From Armatimonadota bacterium (lineage in GTDB: Bacteria > Armatimonadota > JAAZEB01), in assembly GCA_012512505.1 (NCBI GenBank), contig JAAZEB010000196.1, positions 1 through 32,651 on the forward strand: 32,651 bases of DNA. Direction: 5' to 3'. The translations under genes and the position numbers were made by a program. Shown one piece after another: positions 20,412-28,497 of the stretch. The notes beneath the pieces are model-generated. The model ran no database searches and was not told the DNA's origin. It saw nothing but the letters and a program-made list of their open reading frames with translations. The first letter of the stretch is position 1, and each line of letters opens with the position of its first letter.

Positions 20412-21638
20412 TTACTTCCTGGCAAGCCCCAGTGCCACCTTGTGGATTGCCTTTGCCATGTCGAGGATGTCCTCTTCGGTCATCTGCTCATGGATGAAGA
20501 GCGTCACCAGTTCCTTCAGGCCGCGCTCTGTCTGTGGGCACTGGCCGCGCGTGTACTCCACGGAGCGGCCGCCGGGACCGCCGCGCAGCGGGTAGCCGGA
20601 GGTGCCGAACGTCTGCTTGTCCCACAGGGCGGCCATGCAGAGGAAGATCGGGGCGCCGATGTAGTGGGCCCCGGCCGGGATCCCCTCCGCGTTCAGTGCC
20701 CGCGCGAACGCCTCGGCATCCCACCCGGCTACCCGCAGCGGGTAAAGCCAGTAGGTGTGTTTGCCGCCCTCGGTGGTGGGTGCTGCCTCCAGGCCCTCGA
20801 TGCCGCTGATCTCGGCGGTCAGCAGGTCGCCCAGTTCGTTGCGGCGGGCGACCACCGCGCGCACCTTCTCGGTTTGCACGATGCCGACGGCGCCCTGCAG
20901 TTCGGTCATCCGGTAGTTGGGGGCCAGGAACTCGTAGGTGCGGGGACCCCAGCCGGGTTGGCGGTTCCAGCCCTTGTCGCGGAAGTTGATCAGCCGGTTC
21001 GCGAGCGCCAGGTTGTTGGTGATCGTCACCCCGCCGTCGCCGGTGGTCATGTGCTTCGACTGCTGCAGGCTGAAGCAGCCGACGTCACCGAGGGTACCCA
21101 GCAGCCGCCCTTTATAGGTGGTCTGGTGCGCCTGGCTGCAGTCCTCGATCAGCCAGAGGCCGTGCCGGCGGGCGATATCGACCATTGCGTCCATGTCGCA
21201 TGGGTTGCCGAAGAGGTGCACCACCAGGATCGCCTTCGTGCGCGGGGTGATCTGACGCTCCACGGAAGCCGGGTCCATGTTGTAGGTGCGGTCGATGTCG
21301 GCAAAGACCGGGATGGCGTTCTGATAGAGGATCGGCACAATGGTGCCCCCGTCGGTGATTGGGGCGGTGATGATCTCGTCGCCCGGCTCCGGGTTGATTG
21401 CGCCGATGGCGATGTGGATCGCCGCGGTGCCGGAGGTAGAGGCCACGGCGAGGTCGGCCCCATAGAGCGCCGCGAAGCGCCGCTCGAACTCGGTGACCAT
21501 CGGCCCGCCCAGCCCGAACAGGTTCTGCGAGCGGATCGCTTGCGAGACCAGCGCCACCTCCCGCTCGTCGAACGGCGCCCGCTCTGGGAACGGCGCGGTG
21601 CGCACCGGCGTGCCTCCATCGATTGCCAGCATGCTCAT
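20412..21638 (-). CDS. DegT/DnrJ/EryC1/StrS family PLP aminotransferase
   Basis: 408 residues, paralogous to the next gene downstream. Seen: MLAIDGGTPVRTAPFP, TSGTAAIHIAIGA, APITDGGTIVPILY, WLIEDCSQAHQTTYKG (D166) and the PLP lysine K195 in SLQQSKHMTTGDGG. The N-terminal IDGGTPVR motif is typical of the scyllo-inosose/AHBA-synthase side of the family. AGGAGA lies about 7 nt before the ATG at 21638, which is preferred to a second ATG two codons later. It is first in the tandem pair, immediately downstream of a repeat island, so its promoter must lie within or just beyond 21640-21770; none was recognised. Confidence 0.9.
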   Translation of the reverse strand: MSMLAIDGGTPVRTAPFPERAPFDEREVALVSQAIRSQNLFGLGGPMVTEFERRFAALYGADLAVASTSGTAAIHIAIGAINPEPGDEIITAPITDGGTIVPILYQNAIPVFADIDRTYNMDPASVERQITPRTKAILVVHLFGNPCDMDAMVDIARRHGLWLIEDCSQAHQTTYKGRLLGTLGDVGCFSLQQSKHMTTGDGGVTITNNLALANRLINFRDKGWNRQPGWGPRTYEFLAPNYRMTELQGAVGIVQTEKVRAVVARRNELGDLLTAEISGIEGLEAAPTTEGGKHTYWLYPLRVAGWDAEAFARALNAEGIPAGAHYIGAPIFLCMAALWDKQTFGTSGYPLRGGPGGRSVEYTRGQCPQTERGLKELVTLFIHEQMTEEDILDMAKAIHKVALGLARK

Positions 21639-22119
21639 TTGCTTCTCCTAAACGGATCGCCTATCCGGCGCCCCGTGGGGCCAACGAGGTAGAGTGTCGG
21701 CGTCGGAGACGTCTGCCCTGAAAATGGCCTGTTTGCGGCCAGCCTCACTTCCGGATCGGCGGCGCCTCCTCACCCCGAAGGGGTGGAACAACCTAGCCCA
21801 GGGTGCCGCACCCTGGGGAAACCCGCCCGTGCCCAACCCCGAAACCCTGAAAGGGTTTCACAACGGGGGTTCCCCGGTCCAACCCTTTCAGGGTTCGGCG
21901 AAAATGCGCTCGTGGGGTGTCCCAGGGTGCGGCACCCTGGGCTGGGTTCTGGCACCCCTTCGGGGGGCGGGTCGGATGCCCGCGTGTGAGCCAGGTGTTG
22001 GAGACACATCCCATTCCGTAGGGCGTCTCCGACCGCAGTCTTACTCCCCGCCGTCGGAGGCGTCTCCGGCGCCGAGGGGTGGCCGGCGGGAGCCCCATGC
22101 ACGCCAGGGCTCTCTGGAC
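21639..22119. repeat. Second repeat-rich non-coding island
   Basis: 481 nt without a credible gene. The centre is a nested inverted repeat (21772-21966, listed separately). Its flanks carry the GTCGGAGAC word found in the first island: cgtcggagac at 21701-21710, gttggagac at 21997-22005, inverted gtctccgac at 22025-22033, and ccgtcggaggcgtctccggc at 22051-22070. It lies between the start of an aminotransferase gene and the 3' end of a truncated glycosidase gene. Confidence 0.65.
21772..21966. repeat. Nested palindromic element, about 195 bp
   Basis: Three small palindromes occur in order on the left and in mirror order on the right. A: ccccgaagggg (21773-21783) against ccccttcgggg (21955-21965). 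B: a 21-bp palindrome with arms cccagggtg/caccctggg (21797-21817) whose exact reverse complement is at 21921-21941. C: aaccctgaaagggtt (21843-21857) against aaccctttcagggtt (21881-21895). The centre is near 21869. Spacers are less conserved than the palindromes. The arrangement resembles paired REP/BIME-type units. No transposase is nearby. Confidence 0.75.
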
Positions 22120-23245
22120 TCACTCAACCCGCAGGATTGCGTAGCGCGTGAAAGTGCCGGCCGGCACGCTCACCACGGTGCCTTTGCTGGACCGCCGCGC
22201 CGCGACCCGGCGTGTGCTCGCGAAGTCGGGTGAGACTAGCGCCGCGCGGCGCGCGCGCACCCCGGGCAGCGTGACGCTGATCGGCGGCAGCGCCGGGTAA
22301 GGCACCTCGTAGACCTCCGGGATCGTCCTCCCCGCTGTCGGCACCGCCGCCTGCGCGTTCAAGAGATGCAGAATCCACTGCGGGCGGCCGCGCTTGCGGA
22401 ACAGCGTCACGATCACCCCCGGGGGCGCCTCCACCCGCAGCGGTAGCTCCCCCCGCACCGCCCACGCCACCGTGTCGCGGACGAGCTGCCGGTGCGTGGC
22501 AGAGCGGGTCTCTTTCCACGCCTGCCCCCGTGCCACCCCTCCATGATAGCAGCCGCTGCCCACCTTCTCCGCGAAATAGAGCGCCCGCCCCCGGCCCACC
22601 CGGTTCAGCACGATGGTGGGACTGCCGGTGTCGGTTGTCGCCAACACCCGTGCGCCCGGCGCCGCCTCCACCCGGGCCACCGCCTCCATGGTGCTCACCT
22701 CTCCCGATCCGATCCCGCCCACCGGCGCCTCCTCCCGGAGGGCGATGGACGCGGGCCGCGGCGTCAGGATGCCCCGGCAGCGCACCCCAAGCACGCTCGC
22801 CAGGCCCAGGTTGCGGCGCGGGCTGCCCGTCTCATCGTAGCGCGAGGTCTCGTGGGTGGCGACGAGCGTTCCCCCGTCACGCACAAACCGCTCGATGGCC
22901 TCCATCTGGCGCTCGGAGAGGCAGGCCGCGTTCGGCAGCAACAGGGCGCGGTAGCGCCGCAACCGGCTGGCCGTCAGGTCGGCATCCAGCAGCACGTCGT
23001 AAGGCACGTTGGCGAGGGCCAGCTCCTGGCACCACCCATGCCAGGCGTTCACGTAGTGGGCGTCGTCATACCCCTGGTAGGCATCGCGGGTTTGGGCCGA
23101 GAAGAGGACCGCCACGTTGGCTACTGGATCGGTAGCGGTGAACAGCTCCGGGTGCTGCTGCTGCCAACCGAAGGTGGCTGCGAACAGGTGGAGCGGGGAG
23201 GTCTCCTCCAGCCCTAGCCACGAGCAGTGCCCCAGGGCGTTGGCT
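22120..23245 (-). pseudogene. 5'-truncated glycosidase gene, C-terminal part with trimerisation-like domain
   Basis: A frame open from about 23245 to the stop at 22120 encodes some 370 residues with no good start. It reads GHCSWLGLEETSPLHLF, then FGWQQQHPELFTATDPVANVAVLFS, and continues into VPYDVLLDADLT, YRALLLPNAACLSERQMEAIERFVRDGGTLVATHETS and a late beta-rich domain ending TFTRYAILRVE. This matches the C-terminal part of GH42-like or hypothetical glycosyl hydrolases, in which a flavodoxin-like beta-galactosidase trimerisation domain follows the barrel. The catalytic barrel is missing, and the upstream DNA instead encodes a cupin domain in another frame. A GTG at 23115 could start a shorter product but has no clear ribosome site. 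I take it as a gene beheaded by a deletion. Confidence 0.7.
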
Positions 23246-23467: not shown

Positions 23468-24532
23468 CTATTCCACGCGCATTTCTGTCAGCCACAGCAG
23501 GTCGGGCCGGGCGGGGTGCCCGCCGCTGACCGGCATCCAGACGCGAATAGCGGCGGTCTTCACCGGCGTGAAGCGATGCACCGTGCTTTTCGCCGGCTTC
23601 ACTCCGTCGGCAGTCGTCACCGGCATCCAGCGCTCGCCATCCCACACCTGGACCTGATAGCGCGCCGCTGTCCAGTACTGCTCGTCGTAGTAAGCCCAGA
23701 AAAGCTCGATCTCCCGCAGGGTGCGCGGCTGGTCAAACACCAGCGCCGCCCAGTGAGGGGCGCGCGTCTCCGCCGAGGCCCAGGTAACGCCCACGGTGGA
23801 AACGCCCGGCTTCGGCTCCATCACCTCGCCATCGATCAGCGGCGCGGCGCTGTAGCCGGCGAAGTTGCTGTCCACGCGCGCCTCCACGCGCTTGCCGTCT
23901 GCCGGCGGCGTCAGGAGGCGGAAGTGCAGCTTGCGCTCGACCGTGTTGCGCACCGGTGCCGTGTCGGGCAGCGAGAGGGTCAGCCGCGTCTCTGTCTCGG
24001 GGCGGTAGCCGGGCGTCCAGCTGAGGAACACCGACACCGTCGCCGCCTTCCCATCCGCCGAGGGGGTGGCGGTGATGCCCCGGTCTTTCAGCGAGAGGGT
24101 GCGCCCGTTCACCGTCACCCGCAGGCCGTCCAGGTCCAGCCGGCTGCGGTCGGCAAAGCGCCAGGAGACCTTCTTGGGCGGCGCGACGCGCCAGTCGAGG
24201 TCCACCTCCGAACCGTCGGCGTAGCGGACCCCATCGATCACCAGGTTGGTTACTCGCGGCGCCTGCTCGTCATCGAGCACCGTGCCGGGCTGCTTGCCCA
24301 CCACCAGGAGCGTTTCGCCTCCGGGCCACCGGGCGGGATCCAGACGGAAGCGGAGGGTGTTGCCCTGCCGCTCGCCCTGCACCCGCACCCACTTCTTTCC
24401 AGCCACCCGCACGAAGTGCCCTTCGCCCTCGGGCCGTGCTGGTACCGTGAGTGTGATTGGCGCCGTGGCCCGCACCTGGTAGACGACATCGGCCGGTGCC
24501 TGCGCCGCGATGAGGAGCAGCCATGTCAGCAT
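23468..24532 (-). CDS. Secreted discoidin-like (F5/8 type C) domain protein
   Basis: 354 residues. The short N-terminal hydrophobic stretch MLTWLLLIAAQAPADVV is a likely signal peptide. Residues about 20-215 are beta-rich without a recognised family (includes LVIDGVRYADGSEVDLDW, and a metal-free Ig-like look). Residues about 215-354 resemble a coagulation-factor 5/8 type C (discoidin) carbohydrate-binding domain: NFAGYSAAPLIDGEV, HWAALVFDQPRTLREIELFW, YQVQVWDGERWMPV and TAAIRVWMPVSGG. It should bind glycans outside the cytoplasm. GGGGGA precedes the ATG weakly. It is divergent from the large glycosidase-like gene, and its 3' end abuts the truncated cupin gene. No catalytic residues are recognised. 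Confidence 0.75.
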   Translation of the reverse strand: MLTWLLLIAAQAPADVVYQVRATAPITLTVPARPEGEGHFVRVAGKKWVRVQGERQGNTLRFRLDPARWPGGETLLVVGKQPGTVLDDEQAPRVTNLVIDGVRYADGSEVDLDWRVAPPKKVSWRFADRSRLDLDGLRVTVNGRTLSLKDRGITATPSADGKAATVSVFLSWTPGYRPETETRLTLSLPDTAPVRNTVERKLHFRLLTPPADGKRVEARVDSNFAGYSAAPLIDGEVMEPKPGVSTVGVTWASAETRAPHWAALVFDQPRTLREIELFWAYYDEQYWTAARYQVQVWDGERWMPVTTADGVKPAKSTVHRFTPVKTAAIRVWMPVSGGHPARPDLLWLTEMRVE

Positions 24533-24660
24533 CGCACGTCCCCCAATCCGCCCCCGAGGTGGGGAGCCACCCCTGCTTTCGACGGCGCGCGCTATCTCCC
24601 TGTTGCCGGCCGCGCCTGCCAGGCAGGGGTTTGGCGGCCCGACGCGAACTGCTTACCATC

Positions 24661-27600
24661 ATGCGAACACTGCTGCATTCCCTGGCGATCACCCTGTTTG
24701 GCGCCGTGCCCCTGCTGGCGGCGGGGCTGACCGATCCGGAGGTGCCGCTGGTCACCGTCGGCCCGCCGGTGGCCGACTCGGCCGCGGAGGGGTGGGTTCC
24801 CCTGGCCGGCTTCGCGGCCCCGATGACGGGCGGGTTGGCCGAGCCTCATCCGGAGGCGCGCCTCCGGCGCAGCGCCACGCACCTCCTGGTGGCCGTGCGC
24901 GTGCCGCTGCCGGGCGGACGTGCTCCCTGGGCCGAAACCCGCTCCCGCGATGGCTCCGTTTGGGAAGACGATTCCATCGAGCTCTTCCTCGACCCAGGGC
25001 ATACCCACCAGCGCTACTTCCAGTTAGTGGGGAACGCCGCCGGCGCCTGCCTCGATGCCCGCGAGCGTGATGCCGCCTGGAATGCCGACTGGTCGTTTGC
25101 TGCCCGGCGGGTGGAGGGCGGCTGGGAGGGTGAGTTCGCCATCCCGTTCGCGTCGCTGGGCGTGGCGGCGCCGGCCGAGGGCGCCGTGTGGGGCCTGAAC
25201 GTGTGCGTTAACGTGCACGGCCAGGGCGGCTTCTCCTGGTCGCCGCTGCAGCAGGGCTACCACGAGCCCGGCCGCTTCGGGCACCTGCGCTTCTCGCAGA
25301 ACACCACGGCCGGAGTAGCCTCGTTGGCCGGGCTGCTGGCCGGAACCGGGGAGGTGCAGCTCCGGTTGGAGGGCCCCGACCTGGCCGTCCGCTCGCGGCT
25401 CCTGCGTGACGAAACGCCCCTGACAGAGGCATCCGCCGTGCCGATCACCGCCGGGCAAGCCACTGTGCCGGTGGCCTTCCCCCGTGAGGGCCGCTTTCCA
25501 GTGCCCGGCCGCTACCGCCTGTTCGTTACCGCCTCTCGCCCCGGTGACGCCGTGCCGCTGCTGCAGTTCGCCGCCGAGCATGCCGTGCGCCCCCTCCTCT
25601 CCCTGAAGGTGCGCGCCTTCGTCAGCGAGGGCCGCCTCCAGGCCGAGGCGGCGGTGGCGCCCGCCGGGCTGGACCCAAGCCGCCTGCTGTGCCGCTTTAC
25701 CGTGGCGCCCGCCGGCGGGGCCCCCACGCTCACCCGCGAACTGCCTTGCCACCCGGACCGCGCGCTGGTGGCCACTTTCCGTAAAACTGAGCTGCCCTCC
25801 GGCAAGATCGACGTCGCCGCCACCCTCCTGGAGGACGGCACGCCGCTGCGCACGATGACGAAGACGCTGGATCAGCCGCTCTCGCCGCCGTGGTTGGGCG
25901 ACCGCACCGGCATCAGCGACGACGTGCCTGCCCCCTGGACGCCCGTGCGTGTCACCACCGCTGCGCCGTCGTCTCGCGCCGCGGCCACCGCTCGCCCCTC
26001 GTCGCTCACCGCGCACGTTGTCGGCCGCCGCTACACCTTTGCCGGCCCGCTGCCCGCGGCTGTGACCACCGCCGGTGCCTCCGTGCTGGCCGGGCCGGTG
26101 ACGCTGCAGTTGCGCCGGGATGGCAAGCCGGTGGCGTGGCGCCAGCCATGGGTGAAGCTGGGCAAGCGCACGCCCACCGTTGCCCGTCTCGTCGGCGGCG
26201 CCGTCGCCCCGGGCCTGAGCCTCTCCGGCATGACGCAGGTGGAGTTCGACGGGATGATCCGGGTTGACCTCGCCTTGCGGCCGACGGCCGGTCCACGCCC
26301 GGACGGCGTGGTGCTGGAGATTCCGCTCAAGGCGCAGCACGCCCGCTATCTCTACCACTTCCCCGGGCAGTGGGGCAGCGTGGCGAACTCGGGGGCGCTG
26401 CCGGCCGCCGGATGGCAGCACGCCTTCAAGCCGTTCGTCTGGCTGGGCGATGAGGAGCGCGGCTTCTCCTGGTTCTGCGAGTCCGACCGCAATTGGTCGC
26501 CGGCCAACCCGGATGCCGCCCTCAGCGTGCGCCGGGAGGGAGACCGGGTGGTCCTGCGCCTGCACCTGGTGGAAGGCAGCCGCCCGATCGACCGCGAGCT
26601 ACGCTACACCTTCGGCTTCCAGGCCACCCCGGTGAAGCGGCCGGAGAAGGATGTGTGGGACTACCGCATCCACCATGGCGGCAGCTACTCGCTGCACACC
26701 ACGGCCTACCACCGCGCCGGCCGCGTCACTTATCCCGCCGCCGGCCACCTCCGGGGCGACCGCGGCACCTTCGAGGCCTGGATCTGCCCCCTCTTTGACT
26801 CCGACCCGACGCTGCCCGAGGCGGAGAAGCAGAAGATGGGCAACCGCAGCATCTTCACCGTCAGCTTTCCCGGCGACAGCAACTGCGGCATCTACTGGAA
26901 CGAGGTCCACCAGGGCCCGGTGGTCTGGGTGCGCGAGGCGGGCGAGGTGCGCTTCTACGCCGGCTCCGGCACGGCCTGGAGACAGGGCGAATGGCACCAC
27001 CTCGCCTTTAGCTGGGGCGACACGATCCGCGCCTACCTCGACGGAAAGCTCCTCTTCGAGGGAGCCTTCCCGGGCCTGACCACCGAGCCGCTGGAGAAGG
27101 GTCAGATCATCCTGGGCGAGCGGAACGCGCCGTTCGTGCTGGACGACGTGCGCATCCTCGATGAGGCGCGCGTTCCCACCGTGCCGGACGGCCCCCTCGC
27201 CGCCGACGCGCACACCCTGTTCCTCGAGAACTTCGACACCCCGTGGGCCGACGGGAGCACGCAACCGGTGCGAGGCACGCCGGGCACCGCCTCCTCCGGC
27301 GCCGCCCTCGTCGCGGGGCGCTTCGGGCAGGGCCTGCAGTTGGGCGGCCCCACCCGCGAGGGCTATACGCTCCTCGACCGGCTGGCAGACATGGGCGTGC
27401 GCACCGTCTGCTTCCACGAGCACTGGACGCCCTATCAATCGCACCCGTACACCATTCCGGAGCATGAGGCGGACCTGAGCGCCCTGGTGGAGGCGATCCA
27501 CGCCAAGCGGATGCAGCTCCTCCTCTATATGAGCCGGCAGATTGCCGACATCGCTCCGGAGTTCGAATTGTATGGCGAGGACGTGCTGACGGTTCCCTCG

Positions 27601-28497
27601 ACGCTGACTTACACCCGTTACCCGCCGCAGACCGACTACAGCGTTTGCTGGCGCAGCCACTGGCGCGAGTTCTGCCTGAAGGGCCTGGCGGAGACGATGG
27701 ACCGCTTTGGCAATGATGGCTGGTACCTGGACGGCCCCGAGTGGCCGTTCCCCTGTACCAACCGCCACCACGGCTGCGGCTACGTGAAGCCGGACGGCAG
27801 CATCGGGGCGACCTACGACATCTTCGCTACGCGTGAGTTCATGCGCCGCCTCTACGTGCTGACGCGTCAGCGCCGGCCCGATGGCCAACTCAACATCCAC
27901 AACTCGACGGTGATGGTCATCCCCACCCTCGGCTGGGGCACCAGCGTCTGGAACGGCGAGCAGCTCGGCAGCATCGACCGCGGCCCCGAGTTTCTGAAGC
28001 TGATGCCGCTGGATGCGTTCCGCACCGAGATGATGGGCCACCAGTGGGGCACGCCCTCGGAGTTCCTCTGTTACGAGCGCCCCTGGACCACCCACGAGGC
28101 GCTCTCCTTCACCCTGCTGCACGACGTGCTGGTGCGCCCCAACGGCTACGACGACCAACTGGAGGAGATCGCGGCGCTGTGGCGGGCGATGGATGCTTTC
28201 GGGCGCAAGCAGGCGAAGTGGATCCCCTACTGGCGCAGCGCGGGCGTGGCGCGGCCCGACGCCTCGGACGTGAAGGTGAGCCTCTACCATCGGGAGAAGC
28301 AGGGGGCACTGCTGGTGGTCTCTAACCTCTCGGCGCAGGCGCGCACCGCCGCCGTGTCGCTGAACCTGCGGGCGCTGGGCCTCCCGTCCGGCGCCAAAGC
28401 GACCAACGCCCTCACCGGCCAGCCAGTCGACTTTTCCGCCGGCCGGCTCTCCTTGCCCCTCGGCGCCTTCGACTACGCCCTGGTGCGGGTAGAGTAG
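24661..28497 (+). CDS. Large secreted multidomain glycosidase-like protein (CBM9-like, DUF6067-like, LamG, TIM barrel)
   Basis: 1278 residues with a signal peptide (MRTLLHSLAITLFGAVPLLAAG). Domains read from sequence: residues about 25-210 CBM9-like (DDSIELFLDPGHTHQRYFQLV, WEGEFAIPFASLG); about 215-405 two beta-rich segments; about 410-665 a sandwich resembling the DUF6067/GH123-like N-terminal region (FKPFVWLGDEERGFSWFCESDRNW); about 690-845 a LamG/concanavalin-like insert (GTFEAWICP, WHHLAFSWGDTIRAYLDGKLLFEG); about 870-1190 a TIM barrel (MGVRTVCFHEHWTPYQ, MQLLLYMSRQIAD, DGWYLDGPEWPF, QLNIHNSTV); then a C-terminal beta domain. D and E in YLDGPEW are acid-residue candidates. No strong ribosome site precedes the ATG; an in-frame ATG at 24523 would put a basic leader before the signal peptide. 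It ends 88 nt before rhaA on the same strand. Confidence 0.75.
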   Translation: MRTLLHSLAITLFGAVPLLAAGLTDPEVPLVTVGPPVADSAAEGWVPLAGFAAPMTGGLAEPHPEARLRRSATHLLVAVRVPLPGGRAPWAETRSRDGSVWEDDSIELFLDPGHTHQRYFQLVGNAAGACLDARERDAAWNADWSFAARRVEGGWEGEFAIPFASLGVAAPAEGAVWGLNVCVNVHGQGGFSWSPLQQGYHEPGRFGHLRFSQNTTAGVASLAGLLAGTGEVQLRLEGPDLAVRSRLLRDETPLTEASAVPITAGQATVPVAFPREGRFPVPGRYRLFVTASRPGDAVPLLQFAAEHAVRPLLSLKVRAFVSEGRLQAEAAVAPAGLDPSRLLCRFTVAPAGGAPTLTRELPCHPDRALVATFRKTELPSGKIDVAATLLEDGTPLRTMTKTLDQPLSPPWLGDRTGISDDVPAPWTPVRVTTAAPSSRAAATARPSSLTAHVVGRRYTFAGPLPAAVTTAGASVLAGPVTLQLRRDGKPVAWRQPWVKLGKRTPTVARLVGGAVAPGLSLSGMTQVEFDGMIRVDLALRPTAGPRPDGVVLEIPLKAQHARYLYHFPGQWGSVANSGALPAAGWQHAFKPFVWLGDEERGFSWFCESDRNWSPANPDAALSVRREGDRVVLRLHLVEGSRPIDRELRYTFGFQATPVKRPEKDVWDYRIHHGGSYSLHTTAYHRAGRVTYPAAGHLRGDRGTFEAWICPLFDSDPTLPEAEKQKMGNRSIFTVSFPGDSNCGIYWNEVHQGPVVWVREAGEVRFYAGSGTAWRQGEWHHLAFSWGDTIRAYLDGKLLFEGAFPGLTTEPLEKGQIILGERNAPFVLDDVRILDEARVPTVPDGPLAADAHTLFLENFDTPWADGSTQPVRGTPGTASSGAALVAGRFGQGLQLGGPTREGYTLLDRLADMGVRTVCFHEHWTPYQSHPYTIPEHEADLSALVEAIHAKRMQLLLYMSRQIADIAPEFELYGEDVLTVPSTLTYTRYPPQTDYSVCWRSHWREFCLKGLAETMDRFGNDGWYLDGPEWPFPCTNRHHGCGYVKPDGSIGATYDIFATREFMRRLYVLTRQRRPDGQLNIHNSTVMVIPTLGWGTSVWNGEQLGSIDRGPEFLKLMPLDAFRTEMMGHQWGTPSEFLCYERPWTTHEALSFTLLHDVLVRPNGYDDQLEEIAALWRAMDAFGRKQAKWIPYWRSAGVARPDASDVKVSLYHREKQGALLVVSNLSAQARTAAVSLNLRALGLPSGAKATNALTGQPVDFSAGRLSLPLGAFDYALVRVE

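Follow-up and report, generated by a model that had tools for sequence, protein, structure and literature searches.

The nested inverted repeat at positions 21771-21967 of the window, by which we mean the whole 32,651-nucleotide stretch of Armatimonadota DNA analyzed here, is in our view a non-autonomous, MITE/REPIN-like element with mirrored ends of the Acido-Lenti-1 type that belongs to a single-strand transposase, a reading to which we assign a probability of about 80%. In related elements, a Y1 (HUH) transposase of the Y...Q..HH type (TnpA-Y1 subclass 1.2) lies between ends of the order A-B-C / C'-B'-A', and Acido-Lenti-1 itself is most likely a DNA end of that element rather than an RNA gene. 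The evidence comprises the architecture of the element, its copy number, a rule of orientation, covariation of the stems, one genome that carries a gene-bearing copy together with 22 gene-less ones, and an association of the ends with the transposase in Verrucomicrobiota, in Prevotella's family and in Armatimonadota. The window copy has the A-B-C / C'-B'-A' ends of elements of subclass 1.2 and, since neither it nor its own genome was found to contain a Y---Q--HH gene, it is non-autonomous at most.

The core element is 197 bp long, gene-less, and consists, on inspection of the sequence, of six small palindromes in the order A-B-C ... C'-B'-A'. The left end, a double hairpin of the Acido-Lenti-1 type on the minus strand (21771-21817), is made of palindrome A (CACCCCGAAGGGGTG, 21771-21785), a linker, and palindrome B (CCCAGGGTGCCGCACCCTGGG, 21797-21817), the latter also recovered by repeat search. 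Further inside lie palindrome C (GAAACCCTGAAAGGGTTTC, 21841-21859), an A-like hairpin, and its counterpart C' (AACCCTTTCAGGGTT, 21881-21895). The right end, a mirror-image double hairpin on the plus strand (21921-21967), is made of palindrome B' (CCCAGGGTGCGGCACCCTGGG, 21921-21941), a linker, and palindrome A' (CACCCCTTCGGGGGG, 21953-21967), which has one outer-stem mismatch in the window copy. All 21 nt of B' are the exact reverse complement of B, just as an earlier note on this DNA had stated. Outside the core, a left arm (21695-21770) is common to most copies of the same genome, collapsed ones included, and a remnant of a right arm (21968-21983) extends further in other copies. Repeat search gave two arms of 90 nt each (21768-21857 and 21881-21970) that are 77% complementary and, as single-stranded DNA, the element folds into one long hairpin of -83.1 kcal/mol (z -11.1, with none of 200 shuffles as good), which upholds the description, in the same note, of a nested inverted repeat made of three mirrored palindrome pairs. 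The check by RNA folding that it had called for gave a similar picture, with a z of -12.4 and, again, 0/200 shuffles as good. A chance or unique palindrome is ruled out by the complementarity of the arms, the multiple copies and the fold.

The element sits between two minus-strand genes, one of which (20412-21638) codes for a DegT-family aminotransferase according to the domain scan, the other (22120-23115) having a beta-galactosidase trimerisation domain as its sole match. The latter locus had been taken for a truncated glycosidase that the repeat might have helped to rearrange: the single domain match agrees with the first half of this suggestion, but we found nothing showing that the element truncated the gene or caused a rearrangement. 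Elsewhere in the window, a plus-strand ORF of 1324 amino acids (24523-28497) with GH123_N, laminin-G and CBM9 domains is a candidate for a large, secreted-looking glycosidase.

Is the element repeated? In its own genome (5.66 Mb in 396 contigs, 96.9% complete), a 241-nt query around it gives 51 matches. Namely, alignments of 188 nt or more, at 88-100% identity, are obtained at 12 places, one of them being the window copy, 3 further places are truncated at 90-92% identity, and the remaining matches are short or diverged. Uniqueness in the genome, which had been set beforehand as the outcome that would speak against a mobile family, is excluded by these 12 copies. Two copies, on contigs C39 and C169, reach a contig end or stop no more than 3 nt short of it, and the outer arms beyond A and A' are common to most copies. 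Among the 12 copies, the palindromes vary less than the spacers and the center, as had been claimed from the window alone: the mean pairwise difference is.035 for A,.050 for B,.026 for C,.059 for C',.039 for B' and.029 for A', as compared with.067 and.110 for the spacers and.207 for the center, the linkers standing at.042 and.059. Given that the copies have diverged by up to 12%, no recent movement is evident. Across genomes, matches at E <= 0.001 occur in 2 of 41, namely the own genome and one other of the same family (G001). A scan of genome contigs with a strict pattern returned 11 loci only, a count limited by the strictness of the pattern, and viral contigs gave 0 matches to one strict element pattern, which is weak evidence against viral carriage. 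A Y1 transposase gene (IS200/RAYT-like), which the earlier note had proposed looking for, was not found in the own genome.

At 8 further places in the same genome, a lone A-type palindrome, with a TTCG loop in 5 cases and a GAAG loop in 3, stands where other copies have the whole nest, and at 7 of these 8 places both outer arms are still present, whole or in part. We read them as collapsed forms of the element because the orientation of the nest relative to the arms is the same across copies; alternatively, they may be empty sites. One partly collapsed copy (L028, G000:C64:298-418), consisting of A, B, a hybrid center and A', is intermediate between the full and the collapsed form. It should be noted that the intergenic spaces around the copies (L002-L009, L031-L038) are crowded with other repeats, including GC-rich CCGGCG...CGCCGG units and units similar to GGAGCGCCGCAGCGATGCGGC.

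The two ends resemble the Acido-Lenti-1 RNA motif (Rfam RF01687), described by Weinberg et al. 2010 (PMC2864571), where it is listed as a probable RNA, not cis-regulatory, in Acidobacteria and Lentisphaerae. The left end scores 34.4 bits (E 3.8e-6) and the right end 22.6 bits (E 0.006), both under the gathering score of 37, so that the window ends are not formal members of the family; a further locus of the same genome that resembles a copy (C263) has 47 bits, above that score. We also used a covariance model, hereafter R1, for which 12 motifs were taken from other genomes and none from the genome of the window. Run over the whole window, R1 recovers the same two ends, the left at 46.5 bits (E 3e-10) and the right at 39.0 bits (E 2.1e-8), both with two hairpins, a short linker and stems that covary across the model, while its second stem also matches, in part, palindrome C (21844-21864, minus strand, E 0.015) and, weakly, palindrome C' (21882-21894, plus strand, E 0.23). 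Among the 12 motifs of the model, 12 of 13 base pairs are changed on both sides, and the 27 covarying cells compare with 6.6 in shuffles, none of 500 shuffles being as high. The window copy behaves like an Acido-Lenti-1 motif even though it is not a formal Rfam member. Counted with RF01687 at E <= 0.1, the motif occurs 25 times in the own genome, 3 times in G001 and 24 in G002, 129 in a genome of Verrucomicrobiota (G041), 18 in one of KSB1 (G042), 56 in one of Phycisphaerae (G043), 141 in Prevotella (G044) and 5 in its sister genome from the Prevotellaceae (G045). Over the cut-off, it was found in 0 of 14 named control genomes, of which 2 give a weak signal. In 29 of 30 motifs, hairpin B is preceded on its 5' side by the triplet YAG, the full GTAG being present in just 1 of the 30; the corresponding feet in the window are CTAG and CCAG rather than the GTAG (GT[AG]G) of REP/BIME.

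One could claim, on these grounds, that each end is simply a structured RNA, be it an Acido-Lenti-1 small RNA or a hairpin that terminates or stabilizes an mRNA, and that the repeats are retained for this reason. Rfam does file RF01687 as an sRNA gene of unknown function, the stems covary, the RNA fold of the element is as extreme as the DNA fold, and some of the loops are TTCG. Such a loop would make a stable RNA tetraloop. The Prevotella genome, however, shows the motif in an arrangement that an RNA gene does not account for well. Among the 108 matches listed of its 141, there are 43 adjacent pairs within 1.5 kb, and 42 of the 43 are oriented as in the window, with B inside and A outside; 40 of these 42 listed pairs span 275-412 bp and the other 2 are collapsed A-B-A' palindromes of 72 bp, with 22 of the 108 listed matches remaining unpaired. 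Both strands of such mirror pairs carry the same structure. In 18 full elements, similarity ends sharply at A, spacers and outer flanks being near random, with identities of 0.28-0.38. What is more, one element (L203) is absent at the corresponding place of the sister genome: the flanking aligned blocks are 670 bp apart in Prevotella and 105 bp apart in the sister, although other repeats at this site also differ between the two genomes and the insertion junction is unreadable. Taken with the fact that the motif surrounds one transposase subclass, these points (mirror pairs, sharp ends with unrelated flanks, presence or absence at one site, and the transposase) fit DNA ends better, and we consider a primarily RNA-based explanation quite unlikely. 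That said, the hairpins may still be co-opted in mRNA. The intergenic space at this site (L203:890-1560) also holds other repeats, one of which, starting GTAGGGACGCACC, resembles a GTAG-footed REP.

The link to a transposase comes from relatives of the element. An A-B-C ... C'-B'-A' nest in Verrucomicrobiota (L086, genome G041) encloses, between C and C', a Y1 transposase gene coding for 150 aa, and in Prevotella's family (L159) a Y1 gene is placed in the same way within the nest; in KSB1 (L089), motifs also stand on either side of the gene, but they are in direct orientation. The NCBIfam model for IS200/IS605 transposases is over its cut-off in 3 of 4 such proteins, and the REP-transposase model is reached by 3 of the 4, weakly and under the cut-off. 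Protein searches for Y1 in the Verrucomicrobiota (194 genomes, 37 with a match) and in the family of Prevotella (201 genomes, 27 with a match) provided the loci for a wider comparison. With the Rfam model, at E up to 0.5, RF01687 lies within 300 nt of the gene in 20 of 57 loci and on both sides in 12, the nearest match on the left being on the minus strand in 14 of 15 loci and the nearest on the right on the plus strand in 16 of 17. The Y...Q..HH signature is present in 67 of 68 loci, with L088 dropped for want of such an ORF. R1 detects a double hairpin no more than 300 nt from the gene in 44 of these 67 loci, and on both sides in 32, with B facing the gene in most: the left hairpin is on the minus strand in 33 of 38 cases and the right one on the plus strand in 32 of 38. 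Five of the 67 loci supplied sequences to R1, and subtracting them leaves 39 of 62, with 27 on both sides, 29 of 33 on the left and 27 of 33 on the right. Random control stretches of the same genomes gave a hairpin in 0 of 20, both with the Rfam model and with R1 at E <= 1. At the same time, no hairpin was found within 300 nt in 23 of the 67 loci, and the most distant members (L163-L176) have one in 1 of 14.

The phylum of the window behaves likewise. Namely, 86 of 291 Armatimonadota genomes have a Y1 gene of this kind (the own genome having none), and in the 30 loci that were fetched a hairpin lies within 300 nt in 26 and on both sides in 19, on the minus strand to the left in 21 of 24 and on the plus strand to the right in 18 of 21. 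In a set of 14 genomes, by comparison, class-2-type Y1 loci have a hairpin within 300 nt in 0 of 21 cases, and just 1 of the 21 has any match at E <= 1 (L316, more than 550 nt from the gene). In the same 14 genomes, 13 of 15 further loci taken for the Y...Q..HH type have matches at E <= 0.01 somewhere in the locus; the signature itself is visible in 12 of the 15, as against 0 of the 21 class-2-type loci. In two loci, double hairpins form an array beside the transposase gene, with steps of about 70 nt (L284:836-2204) and 183 nt (L296:2021-2635).

Could the element instead be a MITE belonging to a conventional double-strand (DDE) transposon, with terminal inverted repeats that just happen to be rich in palindromes? 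A gene-less interior and long terminal inverted repeats are features of such MITEs as well, the repeat is extended by the outer arms, and the own genome has no Y1 gene. However, what such ends were found to enclose is a Y1 transposase gene, and covariation of the stems is unneeded for double-strand binding, and this explanation is in our opinion very improbable.

One genome contains both gene-bearing and gene-less forms. In the Verrucomicrobiota genome G041, a search with the A-B-C arm of L086 (101 nt) gives 62 matches, which form 23 inverted pairs and 2 '++' neighbors. As many as 22 of the inverted pairs span 173-303 bp, which is too short for a transposase gene, and one spans 734 bp and contains the transposase; the window element, at 197 bp, is built like the gene-less pairs. 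We propose that the transposase would bind the hairpins when they are single-stranded, probably in the template of the lagging strand, that it would cut next to hairpin B, guided by the YAG foot, and that it may move gene-less copies in trans. Recognition and cutting of hairpins in single-stranded DNA would follow the analogy of IS608/ISDra2 and of REP systems, as these are presented in PMC6006769 and PMC3116915; YAG is reminiscent of the GTAG foot of REP, from which we infer its role as a guide sequence. The copies in the genome of the window were possibly spread by a transposase that has since been lost from the genome or is absent from the assembly, and the collapsed forms (A-B-A', or A alone) may be internal deletions between mirrored palindromes.

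It is also conceivable that no enzyme is involved and that replication slippage, template switching and recombination make the palindromes multiply and nest. This would agree with the lack of a transposase in the own genome and with its 8 collapsed, one-palindrome copies. Moreover, the two 46-nt ends of one Prevotella element agree with each other at 0.893, versus 0.773 between elements (0 of 10000 permutations), as hairpin-templated copying predicts. Enzyme-free spread nevertheless fails to account for the same ends, in the same orientation, around one transposase subclass in several phyla, and we give it very little credence. A more far-reaching version of the transposase reading, which we put forward tentatively and at somewhat less than even odds, would be that TnpA-Y1 of subclass 1.2 is a separate system, recognizing two-hairpin ends (A, linker, YAG, B) rather than the lone hairpin of a REP, with Acido-Lenti-1 as its DNA substrate and not an RNA gene. 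Such a system would have spread gene-less copies to five phyla or more, its ends would be kept matched by hairpin-templated copying, and its layers would be shed singly, from A-B-C..C'-B'-A' to A-B-A' and on to A.

If the transposase reading is true, two orphans are joined, namely an RNA family on the books since 2010 with no function assigned to it and a subclass of transposases that was described without recognizable ends. Annotations of 'Acido-Lenti-1 sRNA', such as those beside Tannerella proteases (reported in PMC13298647), would then be transposon ends. The hairpin pair would also provide a concrete substrate on which to test single-strand transposition outside the model elements, and the element offers a reason for many of the assembly breaks and intergenic repeats in such genomes.

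How does the element compare with known systems? In the work on REPINs and RAYT transposases (Bertels and Rainey 2011, PMC3116915), one finds the same two inverted palindromic units with a variable spacer, a long hairpin with compensatory changes, and many extragenic copies with a Y1 transposase gene near some of them. The window element shares this structure, having inverted palindromic units, a less conserved spacer, a single-hairpin fold and many copies. In contrast to the REP with its GTAG, however, the unit here has two hairpins and a YAG foot, and the transposase is of the Y...Q..HH type, with gene-bearing and gene-less copies having the same ends. A cognate class-2 RAYT is not seen, there being no Y1 gene in the own genome, relatives that flank the Y...Q..HH type, and 0 of 21 class-2 loci with the hairpin. 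A canonical GTAG REP/BIME is ruled out by the foot and by the type of transposase. The earlier note had suggested REP/BIME elements moved by RAYT-type Y1 transposases; the part concerning Y1 stands, in that relatives flank Y1 genes of the IS200/RAYT-like kind, but neither a GTAG foot nor a class-2 RAYT was found. Because no Y1 gene was found in the own genome, the foot is YAG and not GTAG, and the transposase is Y...Q..HH and not class-2 RAYT, 'REPIN-like, of another transposase subclass' fits the element better than 'REP/BIME'. Overall, the earlier interpretation is partly supported, and it was right in kind.

TIRtrons, or TIRYT (Di Nocera et al. 2013, PMC3733652), are similar in that Y1 genes lie between inverted repeats, some of which are double palindromes and some of which form repeat families; of the 26 examples described, PMC6006769 places 20 in subclass 2.1. 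They also differ in that many share GGGGWSAS, and Acido-Lenti-1 does not come up in the portion of the TIRtron paper available to us. As to subclass 1.2, Quentin et al. 2018 (PMC6006769) describe it as generally without terminal IS200 structures, with REP given as 'no', and as occurring mostly in Cyanobacteria and Bacteroidetes. The Y---Q--HH signature, the length of about 150 aa, the DHxH and the low copy number all agree, whereas here double hairpins flank 44 of 67 and 26 of 30 loci, and do so in Verrucomicrobiota and Armatimonadota as well. Acido-Lenti-1, as given in PMC2864571, likewise has the two-hairpin motif that we see at both ends of the element; the difference is that here it is a mirror-paired DNA end, found in other phyla and beside Y1 genes. 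Literal sequences of the element gave no match in open-access papers, and a link of Acido-Lenti-1 to a transposase was not found in the accessible parts of the open-access literature, including PMC2864571, PMC13298647, PMC10059132 and PMC7682815. In other words, the kind of element, be it called REPIN or TIRtron, is already known, and what appears to be new is that this family of hairpins goes together with this subclass of transposases.
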